Shown here: one piece after another, positions 14,400 to 63,161 of the stretch | Position numbering within the stretch: position 1 is the first letter of the stretch | Layout of the letters: each line of letters opens with the position of its first letter | Source of the DNA: Clostridiales bacterium | GTDB lineage: Bacteria > Bacillota > Clostridia > Oscillospirales > Oscillospiraceae | DNA: 64,000 nt | Direction: 5' to 3' | NCBI GenBank assembly: GCA_021205695.1 | Contig: JAJPXB010000047.1 | Coordinates: 62,001-126,000 of the forward strand | The notes under the pieces: generated by a model | What the model saw: the letters and a program-made list of their open reading frames with translations, nothing else | Told to the model about the DNA's origin: nothing | The model's database searches: none | Program-made: the position numbers and the translations under genes

Positions 14400-15149
14400 C
14401 GTTAGAAGAGGGCAGGGGAACACATGGCGTATTCTTTTGCCGATAGGGCAGGCGGGTCGATGATAATCACGCCGCTATATAGATTGGATGTAATCGTACC
14501 GCTGGTAACGGTGCCTCCGGCATAAATCCTCCCATCTCAATGTATGGCACTGCACCTGGTTTGACACGCAGACACACATCGGCACGACCTTGCCGTTTTT
14601 GAGCGCTTCTGTGACCGTGGCCTCATCTCTGGCAGGCTACCACCGGGACAATAGGTACGAGAGATGCCCTGCGCTGTCAAAGAAAGCGCCTATCCATTTC
14701 GGCTTTAGCGAATATAGCTTCATATATGACCAGTCGCTGTATCCCATGCTCGTTCCCACCGCATACGCCATATTGTCCAATGCCGTGTCATAACTCATGG
14801 AAGCCAGGTCAACTCTGTTTAACGAATAGCCGAGCAGATTATATGCAGTCGCAAGCGCGCAATAGCCGCATCCGCTTTCCTGGCCGTTACCATGGCCGTA
14901 TGTTGAGCCTGCTATAAAACCAGCGTGTTGATTGTAAATGTGGGACTTATAAACAGCTGCGCTACTGCCAGCTTTGACATATCGATACGCAACTGGCTCG
15001 CAGCCTGACGCAGAGGCACTAGCGTAATATGTTTTGGACAGCAAATTGATAGATTGTGCTGTGGCAGAGGCCAAGGAAGGAGAGCCAAGCCCAAGCAGTA
15101 GAAAGTCCAGCAGCGCGAGTGTCGAAATACCCACTTTCCGTTTTTTCAT
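14400..15149 (-). pseudogene. secreted papain/C39-like cysteine peptidase-like protein, disrupted
   Basis: Signal peptide MKKRKVGISTLALLDFLLLGLGSPSLASA and GCGYCALATAYNLLG; ORF stops at 14637 but same-frame (DEATVTEALKNGKVVPMCVCVSNQVQ) and shifted-frame (IYAGGTVTSGTITSNLYSGVIIIDPP) coding continues. Confidence 0.5.
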
Positions 15150-15379
15150 GAAAAGCTCCCTTCTGCCTCTCTGAAGGCGCATCTGTATATAAACAGAGTG
15201 TTTTACGGAAATGTACGTTTGAAAAGTGTGCCGCAACGGTTGATTTCCCAGTATATTGATTCGAGTCCTGTTTGGAAAAAGTTGCAAAGGGGGCGTTTTA
15301 GTGCCATAACAAACAAATTAATGAATTAGTTAATGAAATTTGCAAAGGTGTACATTTCCAAATTACCGCATGATTTTGC

Positions 15380-16054
<675 letters not shown>

Positions 16055-16646: not shown

Positions 16647-18818
16647 ATGAAAACAGACGAATATATTGCTCATCGCGCCGAGGATGGCCGCACCCAGAGT
16701 GTAAAGGCCCATCTGGAGGGGACAGCCGCACTGGCAGAAAAGTTTGCCACCCCATTTGGTGCGGCGGCGTTGGGACGATGGGTGGGACTTGTCCACGATA
16801 TCGGCAAATACTCCGTGCCTTTCCAGCGGCGCATCAGTGACCCAGATCACGCACCACGCACTGACCACTCCACCGCAGGCGCCCAGGAGGCGTGGCAGCG
16901 ACGGCTGGCTCCAGCGGCCTTCGCTATTGCTGGACATCATACTGGTCTGCCGGACGGCGGTACCCGGCTGGATACAGCGGACGACCCCACCATGATAGGT
17001 CGATCTCGGAAGCAGGTGCCGGATTACAGCGCCTGGCGGCGGGACGTGACGCTTCCCCAGGTGTCCCTGCTGCCCTACCTGGGGCGGGACGGCTTCACTG
17101 ACAGCTTCTTCACCCGGATGCTCTATTCCTGCCTGGTGGATGCGGACTTTCTGGACACGGAGACCTTTATGCAGGGGCCACAGCCCCGCGGAGACTATGC
17201 CTCTCTGCCTGTGCTGCTGGACAGGCTCTCTGCCAAAACAGACCGCTGGTTAAACGGTGCGCCCGGCAACGCCCTGAACCGCTGCCGCAACGACATTCTC
17301 CGCGCCTGTATGGAGCACGGCGCACAATGGCCCCGGGGTCTTTACACCCTGACCGTCCCCACCGGTGGCGGCAAGACTACTGCATCCCTGGCCTTTGCCC
17401 TCCGCCACGCCGTAGCGCATGAGATGAAGCGGATTATCTACGTCATTCCGTATACCTCCATCATCGACCAGACGGTGGATGTGTTCCGGGACATTTTGGG
17501 GGAGGAGAACGTCCTGGCCCATTACGGCGAGGCCGCCTTCCGGCAAAAGGCCCCGGAGGATCTGACTCCGGAGGAATACCGCCAGCTGTTGGCCTCCGAG
17601 AACTGGGATGCGCCGCTGGTAGTCACCACCGCCGTCCAGTTCTTTGAATCCCTCTACGCAAACCGCAGCTCCCGCTGCCGGAAGCTCCACAACCTGGCGG
17701 ACAGCGTGATCATCTTCGACGAGGCGCAGACGCTCCCCCTGCCCTACCTCCGCCCCTGCTGCGCCGCCATCGCCCAGCTGGTGGAGCATTACGGCGCTAC
17801 CGCCGTGCTGTGTACCGCAACCCAGCCCGCTCTGGGGCCGCTGTTTGAGCAGCTGGCCCCGAACTTACAGCTGCGGGAGATTTGCCCCGGCGGGACGGCC
17901 CTCTATCAGACCCTACGGCGCTGCCACCTGGAGGATTTGGGCAGCCTCAGCCTGGAGGGGCTGGCCTCGCGTCTCCGGACACATCAACAGGTGCTCTGCG
18001 TCGTGAACCGCCGCAAAACGGCCCAGCAGCTCTATGCCGCCTTACCCAAGGACGGAGGCAGCTTTTGCCTGACCACTCTGCTGTGTGCCGCAGACCGCCG
18101 GGCCAAGCTGGCTGAGATTCGCCGTCGGCTCAGGGAGGGGCTGCCCTGCCGGGTGGTGTCCACCTCGCTGATCGAGGCGGGGGTGGACGTGGATTTTCCG
18201 GTCGCCTACCGGGAGGAGGCAGGGCTGGACTCTCTCTTGCAGACCGCAGGGCGGTGCAACCGGGAGGGGCGGGAAGCGAACCCCGCCCGATGCCCCGTGT
18301 ATCTGTTCAAGCTGGAGGACAGCCCGGCACCCAAAATGTTGGAGCTGCAAATCACCGCCCTGCGGGCGGCCCAACGGGAACAGGGCGAGCTGGATCTGCC
18401 GGAGGCTATCGCATATTACTTTAAAACCCTGTATGGAGTCAAAGGCCAGGAGGCCCTAGACCAGAAGCAGGTTATGGACGCATTTCTCAAGGGCAGGGGC
18501 GATGTGCAATGCCCCTTCGCTACAGTTGCCAAGGAATTTGCCCTGATTGAGAATCCGACCAAAACGATTTACCTTCCCATTGACAAGGGGGAAGAGCTCT
18601 GCCAGCTGCTCCAGGCCGGACAGACGAACCGGGCATTGTACCGGAAGCTGGGCCCTTACAGCGTGGAGGTCTATCAGGAGCAGTATCAAGCCCTTTATCA
18701 GGCGGGAGCGCTGGACCCTGTTGACGAGCGCTCCGCCGTGTTGACTTCCCCCATCTGGTATGACCGGGAGACGGGGCTGAAGTCTGATGCGCAGGGAGGG
18801 CAGGGACTGTTCCTGTAA
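16647..18818 (+). CDS. cas3: CRISPR-associated helicase/nuclease Cas3 (type I-C)
   Basis: HD motif VGLVHDIGKYSVPFQRRI, Walker A TVPTGGGKTTAS, IIFDEAQTLP, QTAGRCNREGR. Confidence 0.95.
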   Translation: MKTDEYIAHRAEDGRTQSVKAHLEGTAALAEKFATPFGAAALGRWVGLVHDIGKYSVPFQRRISDPDHAPRTDHSTAGAQEAWQRRLAPAAFAIAGHHTGLPDGGTRLDTADDPTMIGRSRKQVPDYSAWRRDVTLPQVSLLPYLGRDGFTDSFFTRMLYSCLVDADFLDTETFMQGPQPRGDYASLPVLLDRLSAKTDRWLNGAPGNALNRCRNDILRACMEHGAQWPRGLYTLTVPTGGGKTTASLAFALRHAVAHEMKRIIYVIPYTSIIDQTVDVFRDILGEENVLAHYGEAAFRQKAPEDLTPEEYRQLLASENWDAPLVVTTAVQFFESLYANRSSRCRKLHNLADSVIIFDEAQTLPLPYLRPCCAAIAQLVEHYGATAVLCTATQPALGPLFEQLAPNLQLREICPGGTALYQTLRRCHLEDLGSLSLEGLASRLRTHQQVLCVVNRRKTAQQLYAALPKDGGSFCLTTLLCAADRRAKLAEIRRRLREGLPCRVVSTSLIEAGVDVDFPVAYREEAGLDSLLQTAGRCNREGREANPARCPVYLFKLEDSPAPKMLELQITALRAAQREQGELDLPEAIAYYFKTLYGVKGQEALDQKQVMDAFLKGRGDVQCPFATVAKEFALIENPTKTIYLPIDKGEELCQLLQAGQTNRALYRKLGPYSVEVYQEQYQALYQAGALDPVDERSAVLTSPIWYDRETGLKSDAQGGQGLFL

Positions 18819-18824
18819 AGCAAA

Positions 18825-18856
18825 GGACACGGTAAAGAGAAACCTTCACCGTGCCC
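18825..18856 (-). terminator. hairpin, likely 3' end of the CreR-like RNA
   Basis: Minus strand GGGCACGGT...ACCGTGTCC stem (9 bp, one G-U) followed by TTTGCTTT. Confidence 0.5.
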
Positions 18857-18907
18857 CTATGTGGATACACCACTCAGCAAGTATTTCAATCCACAGCTTG
18901 TGCTGAC
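18857..18907 (-). ncRNA. CreR/CreA-like cas-regulating crRNA-like RNA (pseudo-repeat plus guide)
   Basis: Minus strand GTCAGCACAAGCTGTGGATTGAAAT (pseudo-repeat 18883-18907) followed by ACTTGCTGAGTGGTGTATCCACATAG; guide matches the cas promoter at 18965-18982 with a TTC PAM. Confidence 0.8.
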
Positions 18908-18913
18908 TTTTTT

Positions 18914-18942
18914 ATTATAAACGACCTTACAGCTATTGACAA
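18914..18942 (-). promoter_or_regulatory. promoter of the CreR-like RNA
   Basis: Minus strand TTGTCA-17-TATAAT; a +7 start is the G at 18907, the first base of the pseudo-repeat. Confidence 0.8.
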
Positions 18943-18964
18943 GCGGCAATTTTTGGCGTATACT
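18936..18964 (+). promoter_or_regulatory. promoter of the cas5-8c-7-4-1-2 operon
   Basis: TTGACA-17-TATACT. Confidence 0.85.
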
Positions 18965-18985
18965 ATACACAACTCATCAAGTGAA
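18965..18985 (-). promoter_or_regulatory. target site of the CreR-like guide with 5'-TTC PAM
   Basis: Minus strand TTC-ACTTGATGAGTTGTGTAT directly downstream of the -10 box of the cas operon promoter. Confidence 0.75.
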
Positions 18986-19035
18986 AGGAGGAAATATATG
19001 ATGCATCAATCGTACAGTGAAAGGAGTGAACGCGA

Positions 19036-19683
19036 TTGTCTATCAAAATCGAAGTATGGGGGCCTCATGCCTGCTTTTCTCGACCGGAGATGAAGACTGA
19101 AAGGGTGTCCTATGACATCATCACCCCCAGCGCAGCCAAGGGCCTGATCGAAAGCATTTTCTGGCACCCCGGCATGACCTGGGTCATTGACCGCATTTAT
19201 CTGCTCTCCCCCATCCAGTTCACCAACGTCCGCCGGAATGAGGTGAAGTCCGTCATCGTGGGGAGCAATGTCCTGTCCGTTATGAAGGGCGGCAAGGCGG
19301 ACCTGGCCCTCTATACATCCCAGGACATCCAGCAGCGGGCCGCCCTGATTTTGCAGGATGTCCACTATGTCATTGAGGCCCACTTTGACATGACGGAGAA
19401 GGCCGCCCCTGGGGACAATCCCGGAAAATTCCAGGAGATGACCCGTCGGCGGCTGGCCAAGGGGCAGAACTACAGTATGCCCTACCTGGGCTGTCGGGAG
19501 TTTCCCGCCAACTGCCGGGAGTGGCCCGGCGGGGAGATCCCCACCCAGCCGCTCACCCAGGACCTGGGCTATATGCTCCACTCCATGGATTATTCCGACC
19601 CTCAGGACATCCGCCCCCGGTTCTTCCGGGCAAAGCTGGTGAACGGGGTGCTGGACTTGCAGGATTGTGAGGTGGTCTCATGA
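19036..19683 (+). CDS. cas5c: type I-C CRISPR-associated protein Cas5
   Basis: SIKIEVWGPHACFSRPEMKTERVSYDIITPSAAKGLIESIFWHPGMTWVIDRI; TTG start with GAAAGGAG upstream. Confidence 0.94.
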   Translation: MSIKIEVWGPHACFSRPEMKTERVSYDIITPSAAKGLIESIFWHPGMTWVIDRIYLLSPIQFTNVRRNEVKSVIVGSNVLSVMKGGKADLALYTSQDIQQRAALILQDVHYVIEAHFDMTEKAAPGDNPGKFQEMTRRRLAKGQNYSMPYLGCREFPANCREWPGGEIPTQPLTQDLGYMLHSMDYSDPQDIRPRFFRAKLVNGVLDLQDCEVVS

Positions 19684-21431
19684 TTCTGCAGGCGCTGACC
19701 GAATATTATGACGCCCTGCTGGACCGGGGGGAAATCTCCCCGCCCGGCTGGGACGATGCCGCCAAGGTCAGCTTTGGCCTGGAGCTGGCAAAGGATGGGA
19801 CGCTGGTGCAGGTGATTCCCTATCAGCGAACGGTGCAGCAGGGAAAAAAGGAAAAGCTGCTGACCAATCGGCTGATGCGCGTCCCCGCCCATGTAAAGCG
19901 AACGGTAGGGATCGCCGCGAATTTTCTGTGTGATACCAGTTCTTATCTCCTGGGGGCGGATGCCAAAGGAAAGCCGAAACGCTCCATAGAATGTTTTCTG
20001 GACTGTAAAGAGCTGCATCAGCGTCTGCTGACGGGTGTAGACACCCCGGCGGCCCGGGCGATCCTGGCCTTTTTTGACTGCTGGCAGCCGGAACAGGCCG
20101 CCGCCCATCCACTGCTGTCGCCCATCTGGAAGGACCTCACCGGCGGAGCCAACCTGATTTTCTGCTTTGGTATGGAGCCGGTGACTGCGGACGCCGCCAT
20201 CTGCCGGGCATGGCAGCAGCATTATAGCGCCGGGGCGGAGGATGCCGAAACCGGCCAGTGCCTGGTTACCGGCGAAGTCAGCCCCATTGCCAAACTCCAT
20301 CCGTCCATCAAAGGGGTGCGGGGGGCCAGCACGATGGGGGCCTCGCTGGTCTCCTTCAACGCTCCGGCCTTTGAATCCTACGGCCACACCCAGGGCGGCA
20401 ACGCCCCCGTGGGGGAATACGCCGCCTTTGCCTACACCACCGCCCTGAACGCCCTGCTGGCGGACAACGAACACTGCCAGGTCATCGGTGATACCACCGT
20501 GGTCTGCTGGGCACAGCACGGGGAACCGGCCTATCAGTCTGTAGGCATGATGGGGCTGTTTGGCGCGGCTCCGGGCATTGATGACCGTGACCTGTCCGCC
20601 GCGCTGCACAAGCTGGCACAGGGAGAACCCATTTCCTGGGACAATGTGACCCTTTCTCCGGAGGAGCATTTCTACTTCCTGGGCCTTGCCCCCAATGCGG
20701 CCCGGCTGTCGGTGCGGTTCTTCCTCCGGGACAGCTTCGGCAGCTTCATGGAGCATCTGGAGCAGCACTACCGCGACATTGCCATCATTCGCCCCGCCTA
20801 TGACACCCGGGAAAATATTCCGCTGTGGCAGCTGCTCAACGAGACGGTGAACCAGAACAGCCGAACCAAGTCCGCCTCCCCCCAGTTGACCGGCGATGTG
20901 CTCCGGGCGATTCTCAGCGGCGCGCCCTATCCCGCCACCCTCCTCAACGGCGCGGAGCTGCGCATTCGGGCGGAGCGGGAGGTCGCCCGGGGCCGTGCGG
21001 CTATCATCAAGGCGTATTACCTGCGCTTTTCCCACCCAGACTGTCCAAAGGAGATTTTACAGATGGAACTGAACGAAACCAGCACCAACGTGGCCTATAC
21101 CCTGGGTCGGATGTTCTCCGTCTATGAGCAGATCCAGCAGGCGGCCAACCCCAACATCAACGCTACCATCAAAGATAAGTGTTTCAACGCCGCCTCCGCT
21201 ACCCCCGCCACGGTGTTCCCCCTGCTGGGCAATCTGGCGGCCAAGCACCAGCGGGTGCTGGCCCGGGACAGCAAGGGTGCGGCGGTCAATCTGGAGCGGA
21301 AGCTGCAATCCCTCTCCACCATTATCGGGGACGCATATCCCACCCGGCTGAACCTGCAGCAGCAGGGTTCCTTCCAGCTGGGCTACTACTTCGAGAATCA
21401 GGCCCGTTATCAGAAAAAGGAGGAAAAGTAA
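19680..21431 (+). CDS. cas8c: type I-C CRISPR-associated protein Cas8c/Csd1
   Basis: MILQALTEYYDALLDRGEISPPGWDDAAKVSFGLEL; position between cas5 and cas7. Confidence 0.95.
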   Translation: MILQALTEYYDALLDRGEISPPGWDDAAKVSFGLELAKDGTLVQVIPYQRTVQQGKKEKLLTNRLMRVPAHVKRTVGIAANFLCDTSSYLLGADAKGKPKRSIECFLDCKELHQRLLTGVDTPAARAILAFFDCWQPEQAAAHPLLSPIWKDLTGGANLIFCFGMEPVTADAAICRAWQQHYSAGAEDAETGQCLVTGEVSPIAKLHPSIKGVRGASTMGASLVSFNAPAFESYGHTQGGNAPVGEYAAFAYTTALNALLADNEHCQVIGDTTVVCWAQHGEPAYQSVGMMGLFGAAPGIDDRDLSAALHKLAQGEPISWDNVTLSPEEHFYFLGLAPNAARLSVRFFLRDSFGSFMEHLEQHYRDIAIIRPAYDTRENIPLWQLLNETVNQNSRTKSASPQLTGDVLRAILSGAPYPATLLNGAELRIRAEREVARGRAAIIKAYYLRFSHPDCPKEILQMELNETSTNVAYTLGRMFSVYEQIQQAANPNINATIKDKCFNAASATPATVFPLLGNLAAKHQRVLARDSKGAAVNLERKLQSLSTIIGDAYPTRLNLQQQGSFQLGYYFENQARYQKKEEK

Positions 21432-21432
21432 A

Positions 21433-22332
21433 ATGTCTGAATCCATCAAAAACCGCTATGAATTTGTCATCCTGTTCGACGTGGAGAACGGCAACCCCAA
21501 CGGCGACCCCGACGCTGGCAATATGCCCCGGGTAGACCCGGAGACCGGCTACGGCCTGGTCACCGACGTGTGCCTGAAGCGGAAGATTCGCAACTACGTG
21601 GAGACTGCCAAAGAGGACGTCCCTGGCTACCGCATCTACATTAAGGACAGCGTCCCTTTGAACCGTAGCGACGCTGAGGCTCTTGACAAGCTGGGCTACA
21701 AAGGCGTGGATGAAAAGGGACTAAAGGACGCCAAGAAGAAGGACCCCACCTTGGATATGAAAGTCCGTGACTTCATGTGTCAGAATTTCTACGATATTCG
21801 GACTTTCGGCGCAGTGATGACCACCTTCGTCAAGGGTAATCTGAACTGCGGACAGGTTCGCGGGCCGGTACAGTTAAGCTTTGCCCGTTCCGTGGACCCC
21901 ATCGTGCCCCAGGAGGTCACCATCACCCGTGTGGCCATCACCACCGAGGCCGACGCCGAGCGGAAGGGTACCGAGATGGGACGGAAATACATCGTCCCCT
22001 ACGCCCTCTACCGGGCGGAGGGTTATATCTCCGCAAACCTGGCTCGCAAGACCACCGGCTTCTCTGAGGAGGACCTGTCCCTGCTGTGGGAAGCTATCCT
22101 GAATATGTTTGAGACCGACCACTCCGCAGCACGGGGCAAAATGGCCGTCCGCAAGTTGATTATCTTCAAGCACGATACCGAGCTGGGCTGCGCCCCCGCC
22201 TACAAGCTGTTTGACACTGTCCAGGTCTGCCGCAAAAACCCCGATGCTCCCGCCCGGGCCTATGGAGATTACACTGTTGTGGTGGACGCTGCTGCCCTGC
22301 CTGCCGGAGTGACCTGCACGGAGTTGGCCTGA
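21433..22332 (+). CDS. cas7: type I-C CRISPR-associated protein Cas7/Csd2
   Basis: NRYEFVILFDVENGNPNGDPDAGNMPRVDPETGYGLVTDVCLKRKIRNYV. Confidence 0.96.
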   Translation: MSESIKNRYEFVILFDVENGNPNGDPDAGNMPRVDPETGYGLVTDVCLKRKIRNYVETAKEDVPGYRIYIKDSVPLNRSDAEALDKLGYKGVDEKGLKDAKKKDPTLDMKVRDFMCQNFYDIRTFGAVMTTFVKGNLNCGQVRGPVQLSFARSVDPIVPQEVTITRVAITTEADAERKGTEMGRKYIVPYALYRAEGYISANLARKTTGFSEEDLSLLWEAILNMFETDHSAARGKMAVRKLIIFKHDTELGCAPAYKLFDTVQVCRKNPDAPARAYGDYTVVVDAAALPAGVTCTELA

Positions 22333-22336
22333 TCTC

Positions 22337-22990
22337 ATGCGGGAGGAGGATTATCTGCCCCTCTCCGGCATCCAGCACTTCGTTTTCTGCCGCCGCCAGT
22401 GGGCACTCATCCACCTGGAGCAGCAGTGGGCGGAGAACCTCCGCACCACGGAAGGGGAGCTGCTCCACAAGAACGCCCACGACGCCGAGCAGCGCATCCT
22501 CCGGGGCGATCTGTTGACAGTGCGCGCCATGCGGGTTCATTCCGCCCGGCTGGGTCTCTCCGGGGAATGTGACGTGGTGGAGTTCCGGTGTTCGGAGGAA
22601 GGAGTACCGCTGGCGGATACCAAAGGGCTATGGCTTCCCTACCCCGTGGAGTACAAGCGGGGCCGGGCCAAGCCCACCGCCTGCGATGAGGCCCAGCTCT
22701 GTGCCCAGGCCATGTGCCTGGAGGAGATGCTGTGCTGCACCGTTTCGGAAGGTGCGCTGTTCTACGGGCAGCCCCGTCGGCGTCAAGAGGTGGCCTTCAC
22801 ACCGGAGCTGCGTGCCTTGGTGGAGAACGCCGCAGAGGAGATGCACCAGCTGTTTCAGCGGGGGTACACGCCCAGGAGCAAGCCCACCAAGGGATGCAAC
22901 GCCTGCTCACTGAAAGATCTGTGCCTGCCCGGCCTGACCAAAGGCCCCAGCGTGTCGGACTACCTGAGAGGGGGGCTGAATGAGCCGTGA
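22337..22990 (+). CDS. cas4: CRISPR-associated protein Cas4
   Basis: LSGIQHFVFCRRQWALIHLEQQW; C-terminal cysteine cluster CNACSLKDLCLP. Confidence 0.95.
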   Translation: MREEDYLPLSGIQHFVFCRRQWALIHLEQQWAENLRTTEGELLHKNAHDAEQRILRGDLLTVRAMRVHSARLGLSGECDVVEFRCSEEGVPLADTKGLWLPYPVEYKRGRAKPTACDEAQLCAQAMCLEEMLCCTVSEGALFYGQPRRRQEVAFTPELRALVENAAEEMHQLFQRGYTPRSKPTKGCNACSLKDLCLPGLTKGPSVSDYLRGGLNEP

Positions 22991-24018
22991 GACATCTGCT
23001 GAACACGCTGTTCGTCACAATTGAGGACGCCTACGCCAGCCTTGACGGGGAAAATGTGGTGATTCACCAGGGGGATGTGACTCTGGGCAGGTTCCCACTG
23101 CACATTTTGGAGGGCATTTTCCTGTTTACCTACCCAGGTGCCTCTCCTGCTCTGATGGGTAAATGTGCCAAAGAAAACGTAAACCTGGTTTTTCTGACCC
23201 CCAAGGGACGGTTTCTGGCCCGTACCTGCGGCATGAGCCAGGGCAACGTGCTGCTTCGCCGCACCCAGTACCGGGCGGCGGATGACCCGCTGCAAAGCTG
23301 CCGCATCGCCCGGAATATGATCTTCGGCAAGCTGAGCAATGCTCGGCAGGTGCTGGATCGCGCTCGCCGGGATCACAGTCCCAGACTTGACGCAAAGCGA
23401 TTCCAGGCCGTTTCCGATCAGATCCGGGGGCTGCTGCCCCAGGTACTGGAGGAAAGCTCCCTGGACTCCCTGCGGGGCTTAGAGGGGGCGGGGGCCAACG
23501 GGTATTTTGGCCTGTTCGACGACATGATTTTGCGTAGCAAGGACGTATTTTTCTTTCACGGACGGAGCCGCCGCCCGCCCCTGGATCGGGTCAACGCTCT
23601 GCTGTCATTTGTCTATACTATGTTGGGCAACGAGTGCGCCTCCGCGTTGGAAACGGTGGGCCTGGACGCCTATGTAGGGTTCCTCCACCGGGATCGCCCC
23701 GGTCGAACCTCTCTGGCGCAGGATCTGCTGGAGGAGCTACGGCCCTGCATGGCGGATCGCTTCGTGCTGACCCTCATCAATAATCAGGAGATCTCCGAGA
23801 AGGACTTTGAAGAGCAGGAAAACGGCGCCGTTTTTCTGACAGGTGAGGGCCGCAAGAAGGTTCAGCGGGCCTGGCAGGAGCGGAAGCAGGTGGTCATCGT
23901 TCACCCGTTCCTGAAGGAAAAGCTGCCCTGGGGCCTGGTGCCCTATGTGCAGGCGCTGTTACTGGCCCGGTATCTCCGCGGCGATTTGGACGGTTATCCG
24001 CCGTTTCTATGGAAGTGA
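22987..24018 (+). CDS. cas1: CRISPR-associated endonuclease Cas1 (type I-C)
   Basis: RHLLNTLFVTIEDAYASLDGENVVIHQGDVTLGRFPLHILEGIFLFTYPGASPALM; GTG start overlapping the cas4 stop. Confidence 0.95.
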   Translation: MRHLLNTLFVTIEDAYASLDGENVVIHQGDVTLGRFPLHILEGIFLFTYPGASPALMGKCAKENVNLVFLTPKGRFLARTCGMSQGNVLLRRTQYRAADDPLQSCRIARNMIFGKLSNARQVLDRARRDHSPRLDAKRFQAVSDQIRGLLPQVLEESSLDSLRGLEGAGANGYFGLFDDMILRSKDVFFFHGRSRRPPLDRVNALLSFVYTMLGNECASALETVGLDAYVGFLHRDRPGRTSLAQDLLEELRPCMADRFVLTLINNQEISEKDFEEQENGAVFLTGEGRKKVQRAWQERKQVVIVHPFLKEKLPWGLVPYVQALLLARYLRGDLDGYPPFLWK

Positions 24019-24025
24019 GGCCGTT

Positions 24026-24316
24026 ATGCTTGTCGTAATCGCCTATGACGTAAACACCGAAGATTCTGCTGGGCAGCGTCGTCTGCGCAAAGTGGCAAAG
24101 CAGTGCGTTAACTACGGCCAGCGGGTGCAAAACTCCGTGTTTGAGTGCTCGCTGGACGCTGCTCAGTATCGCTTGCTCAAGGCAAAGCTCTGTGATATCA
24201 TAGACACAGAGCGAGACAGCCTTCGGTTTTATAATCTTGGAAACAACTACCACAAACGGGTCGAGCATTTCGGAGCCAAGGGCGGTTATGACGCCGCCGG
24301 CCCGCTAATCCTCTGA
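24026..24316 (+). CDS. cas2: CRISPR-associated endonuclease Cas2
   Basis: MLVVIAYDVNTEDSAGQRRLRKVAKQCVNYGQRVQNSVFEC. Confidence 0.95.
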   Translation: MLVVIAYDVNTEDSAGQRRLRKVAKQCVNYGQRVQNSVFECSLDAAQYRLLKAKLCDIIDTERDSLRFYNLGNNYHKRVEHFGAKGGYDAAGPLIL

Positions 24317-24494: not shown

Positions 24495-27400
24495 GTCGCT
24501 CCCCGTGAGGGGAGCGTGGATTGAAATTCTTGTGGATAGATATCCTAAAGTACGGGTAATTAGGTCGCTCCCCGTGAGGGGAGCGTGGATTGAAATATGC
24601 GGGTTGCTTTTGGTGGTCGTTTATGGTTTGGTCGCTCCCCGTGAGGGGAGCGTGGATTGAAATCTGATTTCTCAGGTCGTGGAATACGGCCAGAGCGGTG
24701 TCGCTCCCCGTGAGGGGAGCGTGGATTGAAATTCCAGCTTCTACTTTATATAGTGGTTCTATTAGGTCGCTCCCCGTGAGGGGAGCGTGGATTGAAATAT
24801 GTTCTTTGGAATAGTCTGGAGTCGAAAAATATGTCGCTCCCCGTGAGGGGAGCGTGGATTGAAATTGTTTATTTTGGCTCTTCTGACACTACTTCTACGT
24901 CGCTCCCCGTGAGGGGAGCGTGGATTGAAATTCCAAGGTGGCTCTGATCTGCAACCTGTCCGACGTCGCTCCCCGTGAGGGGAGCGTGGATTGAAATAGA
25001 ACCTTGTTATCAAGGTAGAAACCCCTGAAAGTCGCTCCCCGTGAGGGGAGCGTGGATTGAAATAGAACGCTAAGACCGGATGAAATCAGCGTCAGAGTCG
25101 CTCCCCGTGAGGGGAGCGTGGATTGAAATATGGGGCGGCGGCAGAAAAGCCCCGGCACAGGCTCCGGTCGCTCCCCGTGAGGGGAGCGTGGATTGAAATC
25201 GGAATGAAGCTGGTGGCGGCTCTCTGGGGGTATCGTCGCTCCCCGTGAGGGGAGCGTGGATTGAAATACGGCATGGAGCCTTGATGAACGGATGATGTCC
25301 CCCAGTCGCTCCCCGTGAGGGGAGCGTGGATTGAAATAAGCTCCGTTTTGTTCACATTTCCATCTTGCCATGTCGCTCCCCGTGAGGGGAGCGTGGATTG
25401 AAATATGCCGATTAAAGAGACAGATTCGGTAAAAGGCCGTCGCTCCCCGTGAGGGGAGCGTGGATTGAAATAAAACCGGACACGCTATGTCCGGTCAAGT
25501 AGACCGGTCGCTCCCCGTGAGGGGAGCGTGGATTGAAATATTGGAGGTACAAACAAATGAAAAAGTCAACTGGTCGCTCCCCGTGAGGGGAGCGTGGATT
25601 GAAATCAGAACGCATATAAAGCACCGATGAAAAAGGAGGCGTCGCTCCCCGTGAGGGGAGCGTGGATTGAAATAATGAAAATCCAAAGGGACGCAATGTC
25701 GGGGACGTCGCTCCCCGTGAGGGGAGCGTGGATTGAAATAGGACGCTAAGACCGGATGAAATCAGCGTCAGAGTCGCTCCCCGTGAGGGGAGCGTGGATT
25801 GAAATAAAAGCAGAACGGACGGACGGCGCAACAGCCGGGGTCGCTCCCCGTGAGGGGAGCGTGGATTGAAATAGGGACGATTGACCAAAGACCCGGAGCT
25901 GAGACGTCGCTCCCCGTGAGGGGAGCGTGGATTGAAATAAAGTCACCCCCTCATAATATGAATATGAGTAATGTCGCTCCCCGTGAGGGGAGCGTGGATT
26001 GAAATCGTCTCGGTATAGATGATGTCGATGATTACCTTGGTCGCTCCCCGTGAGGGGAGCGTGGATTGAAATAACCCGTGTGGCCCGGAATTGCTGGGCC
26101 ACCTCCTGTCGCTCCCCGTGAGGGGAGCGTGGATTGAAATTATCCGGGTGATTGATAGCGGCTATTAGCATAATCGTCGCTCCCCGTGAGGGGAGCGTGG
26201 ATTGAAATTCCTTTGCGATAGTCCAGGTAAAGCAGAGCTTTGGTCGCTCCCCGTGAGGGGAGCGTGGATTGAAATATAGTCCATGCTCCCATAGATTTCA
26301 ACCGCCTCGTCGCTCCCCGTGAGGGGAGCGTGGATTGAAATTCTCCGTCTTTTCTTTTGCGATAGTCCAGGTAAAGCGTCGCTCCCCGTGAGGGGAGCGT
26401 GGATTGAAATTCCGGGCGCTGGAGCGGGACAAGCGCAGCGGCCAGGTCGCTCCCCGTGAGGGGAGCGTGGATTGAAATAATTTCAGGGCGGACTGCATCT
26501 CCCGCACCTGGGCGTCGCTCCCCGTGAGGGGAGCGTGGATTGAAATAGCGGGACGCCGGATGTTGTGTTGACTCCTCGGCGTCGCTCCCCGTGAGGGGAG
26601 CGTGGATTGAAATCGGAATCGTGCTTAAATGTTGCCAAAATGCAGAAGTCGCTCCCCGTGAGGGGAGCGTGGATTGAAATTCGGCCCGGAGGAGGCCCTG
26701 GAATGGGGCTTCGCGTCGCTCCCCGTGAGGGGAGCGTGGATTGAAATCCCCTGTCCGCCCAACGCTCCACCACGGCCCGGGTCGCTCCCCGTGAGGGGAG
26801 CGTGGATTGAAATAGCGTGCTGGCGCTCATTGCCCGATTTTGGTCAAGTCGCTCCCCGTGAGGGGAGCGTGGATTGAAATTGCGAGGCGGAGCGACGCGG
26901 GAACAAGTACACCGTCGCTCCCCGTGAGGGGAGCGTGGATTGAAATGTCCGTGGGGGCCTTGTTAAAGCGCTCCAGCGCGTCGCTCCCCGTGAGGGGAGC
27001 GTGGATTGAAATTGCGAGGCGGAGCGACGCGGGAACAAGTACACCGTCGCTCCCCGTGAGGGGAGCGTGGATTGAAATTGGATCAGCTGGGAATCCGCCC
27101 CGCTGACGCCACGTCGCTCCCCGTGAGGGGAGCGTGGATTGAAATCCTGGCGGACGATTCCAACGCCACCATATATGCGTCGCTCCCCGTGAGGGGAGCG
27201 TGGATTGAAATCTGGGATGAGCCCCAGAATGAGTACGACCAGAAGGCGTCGCTCCCCGTGAGGGGAGCGTGGATTGAAATTTATATGATGTGTACAATTC
27301 GCAAGGCATTAACGTCGCTCCCCGTGAGGGGAGCGTGGATTGAAATCTCTACCCCGCCCCTGGCGGCGCATGAACCGCCCGTCGCTCCCCGTGAGGGGAG

Positions 27401-27615
27401 CGTGGATTGAAATGTGCTATAATGGGGGGACTATAGGGGGGATTATATAGTCGCTCCCCGTGAGGGGAGCGTGGATTGAAATTTCCCGGCGTTTCCCGGC
27501 GGCGTGGGGGGTCGGCGTCGCTCCCCGTGAGGGGAGCGTGGATTGAAATATAGTCCATGCTCCCATAGATTTCAACCGCCTCGTCGCTCCCCGTGAGGGG
27601 AGCGTGGATTGAAAG
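24495..27615 (+). CRISPR. type I-C CRISPR array, 47 repeats and 46 spacers
   Basis: 33-bp repeat GTCGCTCCCCGTGAGGGGAGCGTGGATTGAAAT counted by eye at 47 positions; terminal repeat ends GAAAG; spacers about 33-37 nt. Confidence 0.98.
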
Positions 27616-28765: not shown

Positions 28766-29758
28766 TCAGGCTTTCTTTGCCTTGATGGCGGCGGTCAGGG
28801 CGGGGACGACCTCGAACAGGTCGCCCACGATGCCGTAGTCCGCCACGGAGAAGATGGGGGCGTCCGGGTCCTTGTTGATGGCGATGACGGTGTCGGAGCC
28901 GCTCATGCCCGCCAGGTGCTGGATGGCGCCGGAGATGCCCACGGCCACATAGATCTTGGGGGCCACCGTCTTGCCGGTCTGGCCTACCTGATGGGCGTGG
29001 GGAATCCACCCTGCGTCCACGGCGGCACGGGAAGCGCCCACTACGCCGCCCATGGCGTCGGCCAGCTCCCGCACCAGAGCGAAGTTCTCCGCGCTCTTGA
29101 GCCCGCGTCCACCGGAGACGATGACCTCGGCCTCCTCCAGGTTGACCGCCTCGGCCACCTCCTTCACCCGCTCCAGAAGCCGGACCCGGATGTTGGCGGG
29201 GTCGATGTGGATGTCCTCCCGGACGATCTCACCGGTGCGGCTACTGTCGGCCTCCGGCTTTTTGAACACGCCGGGGCGAACGGTGGACATCTGAGGCCGG
29301 TGATCGGGGCAGGAGATGGTGGCCATCAGGTTGCCCCCGAAGGCGGGACGGGTGGAGGCCAGAAGGCCGTTCTCGTCGATGTCCAGCCCGGTGCAGTCGG
29401 CGGTCAGACCGGTGTGGGCGGCGCAGGCCACCCGGGGCCCCACGTCCCGGCCGTTGTTGGTAGCGCCGTATAGGACGATAAAGGGCTGATACTTCCGAAT
29501 GAGCGCCTCTACGGCGTAGGTCTGGGCGTCGGTGTTGTAGGTTTCATACTCGTCGCCCTCCACCAGGAGGACCTTGTCCGCGCCGTAGGCGATGGCCTGC
29601 TGAGCCACGGGCTCCACGCCCTTGCCCAGGACAACGGCCACCAGCTGGCTTCCCAGCTTGTCCGCCATCATGCGGCCGGGGTTCAGCAGCTCATAGCCCA
29701 CGTTCTTGGCTGCGCCGCTGTCTGTCTCGATATAGACCCAAAGATTCTTATTTTCCAT
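28766..29758 (-). CDS. etfA: electron transfer flavoprotein subunit alpha
   Basis: [74 protein letters not shown]. Confidence 0.95.
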
Positions 29759-29776: not shown

Positions 29777-31831
29777 TTACAGCAGCCCGGCGTCGGACAG
29801 CAATCCGGTCAGCTTGTCCGCCGCCGCCTTGCCGTCCAGGCCCTCGATCTTCATGCCGTTCTTCTCGTGCCGGGGGGTGTAGGTCTTGAGTACCTTGGTG
29901 GGGGAGCCGGCCAGTCCCCGCTCCTCCGGGGCGACCACCACCTCGGCGGAGGTCAGCTCGCCGATCTCAGCCGTCCGGGAGAACCGCTGGCTCTTGAAGT
30001 TGGGATAGCGGAGATCGTAGGCGGTCTTGTTCATCGTGATAACGCAGGGGGCAGAGGCGGTGTAATAGTCGTAGCCCTCGTCGCTCTCCCGCTTGCACTT
30101 GATGCTCCCATCCTCCTGGAGAACGGCCTCCACAGCGTAGGAGATGAGGGCGCGATTCAGGTGCTGAGAGATCTCCGGCCCCACCTGGCCGGTGTCTCCG
30201 TCGATGGCCTGCTTGCCGCAGAAGATGAAGTCGAACGCCTTGCCCGCACGGTTCTCCAGCACCTGGATGGCAGTGGAGATGATTTTGGAGGTGGCCAGGG
30301 TGTCCGAGCCGCCGAAGGCCCGATCGGTGATCAGATACGCCTCGTCCGCACCGGCGGCCAGGCACTCCCGGAGAGCGTCCTTGGCCTTGGGGATGCCCAT
30401 GGTGAGGACAGTGACCTTGCCGCCCACCTGGTCTCTCAGGCGGAGGGCGGTCTCCAGGGCGTAGGTGTCAAAGGTGCTGACGATGGCGGGGACGCCCTCC
30501 CGGATGAGGGTGTGCTTTACCGGGTCGATCTTGATCTGGGTGGTGTCCGGCACCTGCTTGATGCAGACCAGGAGATTCAGCTCCTTACCGCTGGGGGCCT
30601 TTTTGGGGGCGGCTGCGGGAGCGGGAGCAGCGGTGGCCTTGGGTGCCTCCTCCCGCTTCGTGGGAGCGGTGGAGGGGGCGGCTTTGGGGCCGTTGTCGGT
30701 GTACTTCTTCTTTACCTGACCGGCGATGACGGTGCGCTGCACCTGGTTGGTGCCCTCATAGATCTGGAGGATTTTGGCGTCCCGCATGAGCTTCTCCATG
30801 GGGTATTCCTTCATATAGCCGTAGCCGCCCATGACCTGCACGCCGTCCTCGGCGCACTTCATGCCCGCGTCGGTGCCGTAGGTCTTGGCGATGGCGGCCT
30901 CCATGGTGAAGGGCTGGCCTGCGTCCATCAGCTCGGCGGCGTGGAGGTACATCTGGCGGCCCGTCTGCACCTGGATCTCCATGTTCGCCAGCATCTCCTC
31001 CACCAGCTGGAAGTTGGCCACCGGCTGACCGAACTGCTTGCGCTGCTTGGCGTACTTGGTGGCCTCCTCCACGGCCCGCTGGCCGATGCCGACGCCGAAG
31101 GCGCCTACGCCCGCCCGGGAGTGATCCAGGGTCTCCATGATATACTTGAAGCCCCGGTTCTTCTTGCCCAGCAGATGGTCCTTGGGGATGCGCACGTTGT
31201 CGAAGATGACCTCGCTGGTGCAGCTGAGGCGCATACCCATCTTATCCTCTTCCTTGCCGATGGAGACGCCGGGCCGATCCCGCTCCACGATGAAGGCGGA
31301 CAGACCCATGACCCCCGCCTTCTTCCGAGTAGAGGCCAGGACCGTATAGATGCCCGCGATGGGGCCGTTGGAGATGAAGCATTTGGTGCCGTTGATGATA
31401 TAGTCGTCCCCGTCCTCGACGGCGGTGGTCTGTACCCCGCCGGCGTCGGAGCCTGCGTTGGGCTCTGTCAGGCAGAAGGCGGCGTACTTTTTCTCCACCA
31501 TGGTGTCGAACCACAGCCGCTTCTGGGCGTCGGTACCTGCCAACAGGACGGGGAAGGACGCCAGAGCGTTGGCGATGAGGGTGGTGCCGATGCCGATGTC
31601 GCCCCGGGCGATCTCCTCGGCGATGGCAAAGACCTGCACATTGGTCAGGCCGGGACCGCCGTATTCAGCGGGAATACACAGCTGGTTCAGGCCCATGTCG
31701 CAGGCCATGTCCAGCAGCTTTTCCGGGAACTCGTTGTTCTTTTCGTAATCCCCCACCGTGGGGATCACCTCTTTATCCACGAACTCCCGAACCATGGTCA
31801 GCAGCTCCTGGGTCTCGTTGTCGAAGAGCAT
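29777..31831 (-). CDS. acyl-CoA (butyryl-CoA-like) dehydrogenase fused to electron transfer flavoprotein subunit beta
   Basis: N-terminal ACAD (CLTEPNAGSDAGG, EGTNQVQRTVIAGQV), Ala/Pro/Lys-rich linker, then EtfB (LLVCIKQVPDTTQIKIDPVKHTLIREGVPAIVSTFDTYALETALRL); no stop between. Confidence 0.93.
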   Translation of the reverse strand: MLFDNETQELLTMVREFVDKEVIPTVGDYEKNNEFPEKLLDMACDMGLNQLCIPAEYGGPGLTNVQVFAIAEEIARGDIGIGTTLIANALASFPVLLAGTDAQKRLWFDTMVEKKYAAFCLTEPNAGSDAGGVQTTAVEDGDDYIINGTKCFISNGPIAGIYTVLASTRKKAGVMGLSAFIVERDRPGVSIGKEEDKMGMRLSCTSEVIFDNVRIPKDHLLGKKNRGFKYIMETLDHSRAGVGAFGVGIGQRAVEEATKYAKQRKQFGQPVANFQLVEEMLANMEIQVQTGRQMYLHAAELMDAGQPFTMEAAIAKTYGTDAGMKCAEDGVQVMGGYGYMKEYPMEKLMRDAKILQIYEGTNQVQRTVIAGQVKKKYTDNGPKAAPSTAPTKREEAPKATAAPAPAAAPKKAPSGKELNLLVCIKQVPDTTQIKIDPVKHTLIREGVPAIVSTFDTYALETALRLRDQVGGKVTVLTMGIPKAKDALRECLAAGADEAYLITDRAFGGSDTLATSKIISTAIQVLENRAGKAFDFIFCGKQAIDGDTGQVGPEISQHLNRALISYAVEAVLQEDGSIKCKRESDEGYDYYTASAPCVITMNKTAYDLRYPNFKSQRFSRTAEIGELTSAEVVVAPEERGLAGSPTKVLKTYTPRHEKNGMKIEGLDGKAAADKLTGLLSDAGLL

Positions 31832-32222
31832 GGCGGAAAAACTCCTTTTCTGTAAAAGTCTGGAGAGCGGTAAAAGCTCAGTTTGTATTATAGCACGTTT
31901 CAATGGCATGGGCAACATTTTTTGCAGGCTTGTAGGGAAATCGTGGGGAGCGGACGGTTGCGGGATCGCCGGAAGGTCTGCGGCAGGTGATGGCGCGCGC
32001 GTCCCCCGCTCAACTGTTTTATGGCAGGCCTTCGTCTCAGAAAGAGCGTCGGCTGCCCGAGGGACAGACTGGGGAGCGCAGCATACGCCCACAGACAAAG
32101 CCAGATCCCCCAGGCGGATTCGCACAAGAGCAAATTCCTCTACCTATGCCCCGAAACCTGTGCTATAATCAAGGCAGCTCGGGAAAATTCGAGGAAATCA
32201 AAAGAACAGGGAGGAGCCCCAT

Positions 32223-61355: not shown

Positions 61356-63161
61356 TCACTGGCTGTCCAGCTTGAGCACTGCCATAAACGCTTCGGTAGG
61401 CATCTGTACCGTGCCCAGAGAGCGCATCTTCTTTTTGCCCCGCTTCTGCTTCTCCAGCAGCTTTTTCTTACGGGTGATGTCGCCGCCGTAGCACTTGGCC
61501 AGCACGTCCTTGCGCACCGCCTTGATGGTCTCCCGGGCGATAATCTTGCCGCCGATGGCCGCCTGGATGGGTACCTCGAACTGCTGGCGGGGGATGTTCT
61601 CCTTCAGCTTCTCGCAGATGCGCCGGGCCCGGCCGTAGGCCTTGTCCTTGTGGACGATAATGCTCAGGGCATCCACCTTGTCCCCGTTGAGCAGGAAATC
61701 CACCTTCACCAGGCTGCTGGTGCGGTAGTCTGCCAGCTCGTAGTCCAGGGAGGCGTAGCCTTTGGTGTGGGCCTTGAGGGTGTCAAAGAAGTCGAAGATA
61801 GTCTCATTCAGGGGCATGGAGTAGCGCAGCTCTACCAGGTTGGTGTCCAGATACTGCATATCCCGGTACTCTCCCCGCCGCTCCTGGCAGATGGGCATAA
61901 TGTCCCCCACGTAGTCGTTGGGGGTGATGATGGAGACGTTGACGTAGGGCTCCCGGGCCTCCCTGATGACGGCGGGGTCGGGATAGTTGTGGGGGTTGTC
62001 CACCCGGACGACGGAGCCGTCCGTCTTGATGATCTCATAGATGACGTTGGGCAGGGTGGTAACCAGATCCAGGTCAAACTCCCGCTCCAGCCGCTCCTGG
62101 ATGATCTCCATATGGAGCAGCCCCAAAAAGCCGCACCGGAAGCCGAAGCCCAGGGCCGCGGAGGACTCCGGCTCAAAGACCAGAGAGGCGTCGTTGAGCT
62201 GGAGCTTTTCCAGGGCGTCCCGCAGATCGGGATATTTGGAGCCGTCCTCGGTGTAGATGCCGCAGTAGACCATGGGCTGAGCGGGCCGATAGCCGGGGAG
62301 GGCCTCAGCCGTGGGACGGGTGGCCCCGGTGACGGTGTCGCCTACGCGGGTGTCCCGTACGTTTTTGATGCTGGCGGTGAAATAGCCCACCTCTCCGGCG
62401 GTGAGCTCATCCCTGGGCTCCATGCCGATGGGCAGCATATGGCCGCACTCCACCACCTTATAGACGGCTCCGGAGGCCATCATCTCCACGTCCATACCCA
62501 CGGACAGCCTGCCGTCCACCACCCGGACCAGCACCACCACGCCCCGGTAGGAGTCATACTGGCTGTCGAAGATCAGGGCCTTTAAGGGGGCGTCCGGGTC
62601 GCCCTCCGGGGCGGGGATGTTGTCCACCACGTCCTCCAGGACAGCGGGGATGTTGATGCCCGCCTTGGCGGAGATCTCCGGGGCGTCGGCGGCGGGAAGG
62701 CCGATGATGTTCTCGATCTCCTCCTTCACCCGCCTGGGATCGGCGGCGGGGAGGTCGATCTTGTTGATGACCGGCAGAATCTCCAGGTTGTGATCCAAGG
62801 CCAGATAGGTGTTGGCCAGGGTCTGGGCCTCCACGCCCTGGCTGGCATCTACCACCAGCACCGCCCCCTCGCAGGCGGCCAGGGAACGGCTGACCTCATA
62901 GTTGAAATCCACATGGCCCGGGGTGTCGATCAGGTTGAGAAGATACTCCTCCCCGTCCGGGGCGTGGTAGCGCAGGGTCACAGCCCTGGCCTTGATGGTG
63001 ATGCCCCGCTCCCGCTCCAGCTCCATGTTGTCCAGCAGCTGACTCTCCATGTCCCGCTCCGCCACCGCTCCGCACAGCTCGATGAGCCGGTCGGACAGCG
63101 TTGATTTGCCGTGGTCGATATGCGCGATGATGGAAAAATTACGAATATGATCCTGATTCAT
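61356..63161 (-). CDS. lepA: elongation factor 4
   Basis: [50 protein letters not shown]-terminal [24 protein letters not shown]. Confidence 0.97.

Follow-up and report, generated by a model that had tools for sequence, protein, structure and literature searches.

CreR RNAs are listed for subtypes I-B, I-E and V-A in reviews (PMC13131331, PMC12737573), and the initial annotation of the present DNA was right in stating that CreA and CreR RNAs are established in other type I subtypes (CreR in I-B and I-E, CreA in I-B and I-F). The CreA of I-B pairs at guide nucleotides 1-5 and 7-11 next to a TTC PAM, where mutation of nucleotide 6 or 12 is without effect and mutation of any other of nucleotides 1-11 is not (PMC8501985), and shortened guides in I-B give repression without interference (PMC10989794). 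In type I-C, the crRNA handle measures 11 nt (PMC3890593; PMC10810201), and reporter expression fell ~700-fold when I-C Cascade was directed to a TTC-flanked promoter (PMC10810201). No type I-C CreR is named in the literature searched, which excludes Shmakov 2023 and the original CreR paper. Shmakov 2023 is reportedly a broad survey of such elements, which may include I-C.

The window (i.e. the whole stretch of 64,000 nucleotides analysed here, contig JAJPXB010000047.1 of a Clostridiales bacterium, positions 62,001 to 126,000) carries a type I-C locus with a repeat-like element outside the array, whose partial guide is directed at the locus's own cas promoter next to the PAM of the effector, as is characteristic of CreR. 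Considering its anatomy, pairing, PAM, covariation and unique target, all of which are read directly from the DNA, the element is very probably a type I-C CreR gene, the RNA of which would let Cascade repress its own operon. The features are as follows.

16647 to 18818, plus strand: cas3 (TIGR01587, TIGR01596), upstream of the guide-RNA element; start codon provisional
18823 to 18907, minus strand: predicted CreR-like RNA gene (repeat-like hairpin, handle, guide, terminator-like hairpin)
18823 to 18858, minus strand: strong terminator-like hairpin 3' of the guide, by fold energy; counterparts in relatives
18861 to 18873, minus strand: hairpin in the guide region, GTGG/CCAC, guide nucleotides 10-13 with 19-22; recurs in the window's clade
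18866 to 18882, minus strand: predicted functional guide, 17 nt, pairing at 1-5, 7-11 and 13-17
18883 to 18893, minus strand: 11-nt handle TGGATTGAAAT; the array repeat ends in the same 11 nt
18894 to 18907, minus strand: 5' part of the degenerate repeat, GT plus 4-bp stem CAGC/GCTG with 4-nt loop; stem covaries in relatives
18914 to 18919, minus strand: -10 box TATAAT of the guide-RNA promoter, 17-nt spacer; predicted start 18907
18937 to 18942, minus strand: -35 box TTGTCA of the guide-RNA promoter, overlapping the -35 box of the cas promoter
18936 to 18941, plus strand: -35 box TTGACA of the cas5c operon promoter
18959 to 18964, plus strand: -10 box TATACT of the cas5c operon promoter
18966 to 18982, minus strand: target (protospacer), about -5 to +11 from the predicted cas start
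18983 to 18985, minus strand: PAM TTC
19036 to 19683, plus strand: cas5c, crRNA-processing subunit of type I-C Cascade (TIGR01876)
19680 to 21431, plus strand: cas8c (TIGR01863)
21433 to 22332, plus strand: cas7 (csd2; TIGR02589)
22337 to 22990, plus strand: cas4 (TIGR00372)
22987 to 24018, plus strand: cas1c (TIGR03640)
24026 to 24316, plus strand: cas2, from open reading frame and position alone; start picked by eye
24495 to 27615, plus strand: CRISPR array, 47 repeats GTCGCTCCCCGTGAGGGGAGCGTGGATTGAAAT

NCBIfam models confirm cas3, cas5c, cas8c, cas7, cas4 and cas1, those for cas5c, cas8c, cas7 and cas1 being type I-C models. The Cas5c sequence is near the solved I-C Cas5 structures 3vzi, 7kha and 8dex, and because of this closeness an 11-nt handle is to be expected. 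Behind the targeted promoter the gene order is cas5c-cas8c-cas7-cas4-cas1-cas2; cas3 lies upstream, ends at 18818 and is therefore not behind this promoter, which places it outside the predicted repressed operon. Elsewhere in the window, upstream of cas3, a 216-aa frame stands beside a serine resolvase (14637-15287 and 15380-16048, both minus strand); it has no Pfam match and a signal-like hydrophobic stretch close to its start. At 29777-32125 (minus strand), an acyl-CoA dehydrogenase and an electron-transfer flavoprotein domain share a single 782-aa frame, which, from the sequence, looks like a natural fusion, and an EtfA-like gene (28766-29758) adjoins it.

The minus strand from 18907 to 18883, when re-read, gave GT-CAGC-ACAA-GCTG-TGGATTGAAAT, so that the hairpin and handle had been annotated correctly to the base, and the guide ACTTGCTGAGTGGTGTATCCACATAG follows from 18882. 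The repeats of element and array have GT and the final 11 bases in common and differ in the stem. These 11 bases, annotated as the end of the array repeat, indeed match exactly at 18883 and in the array and nowhere else, and GTGGATTGAAAT has 47 copies in the genome of 2,236,337 bases, 46 in the array and one in the element. The stem of the element repeat is only 4 bp, the stability of the lone hairpin is unremarkable (z -0.7), and when the full-length RNA is folded, the repeat stem faces competition from the guide hairpin and from alternative pairings. No second handle was found 3' of the window guide; in its place there is a hairpin of -24 kcal/mol (z -6.6, 18815-18862 folded) with a U-rich tail, and terminator-like hairpins also follow nearly all other guides in relatives. 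Judged by its fold, the element ends in a terminator-like hairpin, not a second repeat, and does not have the two-repeat form of a mini-CRISPR; this form was not treated as defining, because one-repeat creA genes are known (PMC9458426, PMC8501985). An Rfam search of the element gave no match near the gathering score.

Opposite the guide, the minus strand from 18985 to 18965 reads TTC-ACTTGATGAGTTGTGTAT. The window sequence agrees with the annotated pattern (matches at 1-5, 7-11 and 13-18, mismatches at 6 and 12) and with the annotated TTC PAM. In the genome, PAM plus target pattern matched exactly once; allowing as many as three mismatches added the guide itself and nothing else. Among 20,000 shuffles of the intergenic sequence, two contained TTC with at least 12/15 matches, the observed value being 15/15. 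Array spacers were also considered as promoter-targeting guides and were ruled out, since 0/46 scored above 11/15 against the promoter region.

Type I-C loci were gathered via Cas5c at four taxonomic levels (genus, family, order, phylum) and in a genome collection (many of the surveyed genomes being metagenome assemblies), which gave 196 oriented loci, with arrays detected in 126. For each handle-like site outside an array, a near-copy of the next 17 bases (6 and 12 ignored) was sought within 900 nt; array artefacts and duplicates were removed and PAMs starting with TT or CT kept. This resulted in 48 non-redundant cas-adjacent elements among the 196 loci, with guides matching their own cas promoter region, compared to 26 matches in 9195 trials with swapped guides. 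Conservation of guide and target in relatives, which had been set beforehand as a test, was thereby found (48 covarying guides, same PAM), and it also supports the annotated proposal that Cascade and this RNA may repress the cas operon. Elements were counted in 26/60 loci of the family sample, 13/53 of the order and 2/47 of the phylum, these being lower bounds from a strict rule in samples that share lineages. Under the same rule, roughly three in four of the sampled I-C loci have no detectable element. Eight I-C loci on plasmids of six phyla outside Bacillota gave array artefacts only, and a DNA-level search for plasmid relatives of the region returned none. Going by these counts, the element is widespread in clostridial I-C loci and not peculiar to this genome.

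In one locus (L221), ~300-380 nt upstream of cas5c on the minus strand, the element's repeat is near-canonical, and a second repeat with a 34-nt spacer comes before it; it looks as though a genuine spacer had been integrated into the regulatory element by the adaptation machinery. If so read, it would show what the degeneration of the repeat prevents in other loci.

The PAM of the 48 elements is TTC in 37 and TTT in 9. To guard against circularity, the search was rerun selecting on nucleotides 1-11 only and requiring the repeat hairpin, which gave 43 matches, 4 of them array artefacts (PAM AAT). Positions 13-17 matched at 0.91, 0.95, 0.95, 0.91 and 0.72 in this search, compared to 0.26-0.28 for positions 6, 12, 18, 19 and 20, and the PAM, which had not been selected for, was TTC in 32/39 after removal of the artefacts; with swapped guides, 4828 trials yielded 5 TTC-flanked matches. 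Conservation extends over 17 nt (15 paired bases in three 5-nt segments), with 6, 12 and 18 onwards at chance. The 18-nt match of the initial annotation is true for the window sequence, but the conserved match is one base shorter: position 18 matches in 11/48 elements, and because this is chance level, its match in the window is probably luck. The pattern is as would be expected if Cascade reads three five-base segments and flips out every sixth base, and the assignment of both mismatches to flipped-out positions of type I is upheld by the relatives, where 6 and 12 are at chance and the flanking segments conserved. Selection for mismatching at 6 and 12 was rejected (14 matches versus 15.4 expected and 7 versus 10.5 expected, respectively, in the 48 elements); neutrality is enough for these positions, since matching there is about chance across the set. 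Within the window's clade, guide and target have both changed at nearly every paired position (compared to the close relative L071, bases 2 and 5 are altered in both copies), and the repeat stem covaries as well, with 26 stem sequences, a bottom pair that is always C-G, and GT nearly always preceding.

In the same clade (the window, L069-L075 and L258), guide nucleotides 19-25 are complementary to nucleotides 8-13; the latter are constrained by the target, and the two arms covary. The energy of this self-fold is below that of shuffled tails in most of the clade. As a general feature the guide hairpin was rejected, low p values (non-independent among relatives) being found chiefly in this clade and 10/48 elements lying below 0.1. 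The self-fold could mask the guide or weaken loading, and it may be speculated that short stem and guide hairpin together weaken the element, possibly so that array crRNAs win.

Two divergent sigma70-type promoters were called as consensus matches, 11/12 each (TTGTCA-17-TATAAT on the minus strand, TTGACA-17-TATACT on the plus strand), in a scan that gave four sites versus 0.3 expected from shuffles. G18907 lies 7 nt downstream of the end of TATAAT in the guide-RNA promoter, and the RNA should therefore begin with the repeat itself; a match of at least 5/6 to this box recurs at the same offset in 17/48 elements, compared to at most 5 at any other offset among those listed. The overlap of the two -35 boxes is also present in L070, L071 and L075 and, shifted by one base, in L073 and L074, and because of this overlap both promoters should exclude each other. 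In 26 elements a strong promoter was called within 200 nt. Of their targets, 19 cover the start region (-12 to +38) and 7 are placed just upstream of the -35 box (-64 to -39; L082, L084, L129, L140, L228, L232 and L261), with none between the two classes; for the window and most of its closest relatives the span is -5 to +11. Both positions would be compatible with steric repression, and a target in the second might also affect the divergent guide-RNA promoter.

The predicted cas start is 65 nt upstream of cas5c, and in the leader behind it (18988-19035) a short ATG frame (19000), with a strong ribosome-binding site, AAAGGAGG, ahead of it, comes before the ribosome site of cas5c itself. Such a frame, and the fact that known CreA RNAs look alike and adjoin cas genes (PMC8501985), would also fit a CreTA-type addiction module, where a CreA guide would keep silent a toxin RNA or mini-gene hidden in the cas5c leader, with cas control as a side effect. 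However, the targeted promoter reaches cas5c within ~65 nt, the leaders of relatives have a like layout with unrelated short frames, not conserved among close relatives (L071 reads ATG TGA), and in L113, L211, L236 and L261 the element is found upstream of cas3, where the operon promoter would be, i.e. it follows the promoter. A module with a conserved mini-gene in the leader was rejected, a toxic RNA without sequence conservation may remain, and on balance an addiction module is very improbable. Still less probable is a decoy of the Racr kind, whose repeat hairpin would bind and inhibit Cas5c or Cascade with the guide match being incidental: Racr RNAs are likewise lone repeat units behind a promoter, with a I-C example in RacrIC1 (PMC10651486), but here guide, PAM and target are conserved together, and the element sits in the cas locus, between cas3 and cas5c. 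A viral origin was ruled out, as the exact form of the element repeat had no match in viral contigs. Two copies of a protein's DNA-binding site, or a local intergenic duplication, would also leave a pair of similar 17-nt sequences, 100 nt from each other, in the same intergenic region without any RNA guide. Neither would account for a repeat hairpin and handle preserved ahead of one copy with TTC ahead of the other, the mismatches at 6 and 12, the end of the match at 17, the joint changes between relatives or copies lying on opposite strands (as in 7/48 elements), so that this reading is hardly credible at all, shared ancestry or duplication as the source of the match being ruled out by the mismatch pattern.

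Returning to the element as a CreR gene, we infer its transcription, processing, loading, repression and derepression as follows. The element's own promoter would give rise to a crRNA-like RNA; Cas5c would cleave it at the base of its degenerate hairpin, leaving the normal 11-nt handle, and the RNA would then be loaded into Cascade (Cas5c/8c/7). The complex would recognise TTC and, with flipped bases separating three paired segments of 5 nt each, span 17 nt across the start of the cas5c operon. RNA polymerase would be blocked there, while Cas3 would presumably not destroy the chromosome, the paired stretch being too short for this. In this way free Cascade would limit its own production and that of cas4, cas1 and cas2, and a shortage of Cascade, its occupation by array crRNAs or its blockage by an inhibitor would bring the operon back on. 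Relief by anti-CRISPRs is borrowed, by analogy, from CreR work on other subtypes and may apply here.

If the element works in this manner, RNA-guided self-repression would extend to type I-C, a compact subtype without Cas6, and would be common in Clostridia. The 48 covarying pairs would form a natural record of the pairing that is kept for Cascade binding, apparently without attack by Cas3 (15 bases in three segments), and also of where Cascade is placed on promoters, which could be of use in designing I-C repressors and in predicting how such systems respond to anti-CRISPRs. It is possible, if somewhat short of an even chance, that type I-C systems of Clostridia own a CreR class, which would be one-repeat and terminator-ended, with a 17-nt three-segment rule and two docking positions, and in the window's clade overlapping -35 boxes and a self-folding guide. 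If this holds, -35 coupling and guide self-fold would set how easily the RNA is displaced by array crRNAs.

Compared to known systems, the element shares with tracr-L of type II-A Cas9, as outlined in PMC8730458, that a CRISPR-derived RNA directs an effector to its own cas promoter, whereas tracr-L, in that outline, uses Cas9 and a tracrRNA and has no relation to the element in sequence or architecture. Racr RNAs, including RacrIC1, resemble it in having a single repeat, their own promoter and a type I-C example, but are virus-carried decoys, whereas the element is cas-linked with a conserved promoter target (PMC10651486). The CreA of CreTA (I-B haloarchaea, PMC8501985; I-F Acinetobacter, PMC10097628) also has a degenerate repeat, a partial guide with flipped positions and a promoter-adjacent PAM; the creA of H. 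hispanica likewise consists of one repeat and a terminator (PMC8501985), and the Acinetobacter I-F guide pairs at 17/20 nt (PMC10097628). CreA represses a toxin RNA, however, whereas the promoter targeted here drives cas5c, with no conserved toxin seen. CreR (I-B, I-E, V-A), which the element also resembles, is portrayed in the available accounts as an RNA like a crRNA, encoded by a repeat-like element of the cas locus, that pairs in part with the cas promoter and is proposed to serve autorepression by the effector (PMC13131331, PMC12737573, PMC12948488). Relative to CreR as portrayed there, the element belongs to subtype I-C, has Cas5c in place of Cas6 and is predicted from sequence; it nearly always consists of one degenerate repeat and a terminator-like hairpin rather than a mini-CRISPR, and its pairing is fixed at 17 nt.
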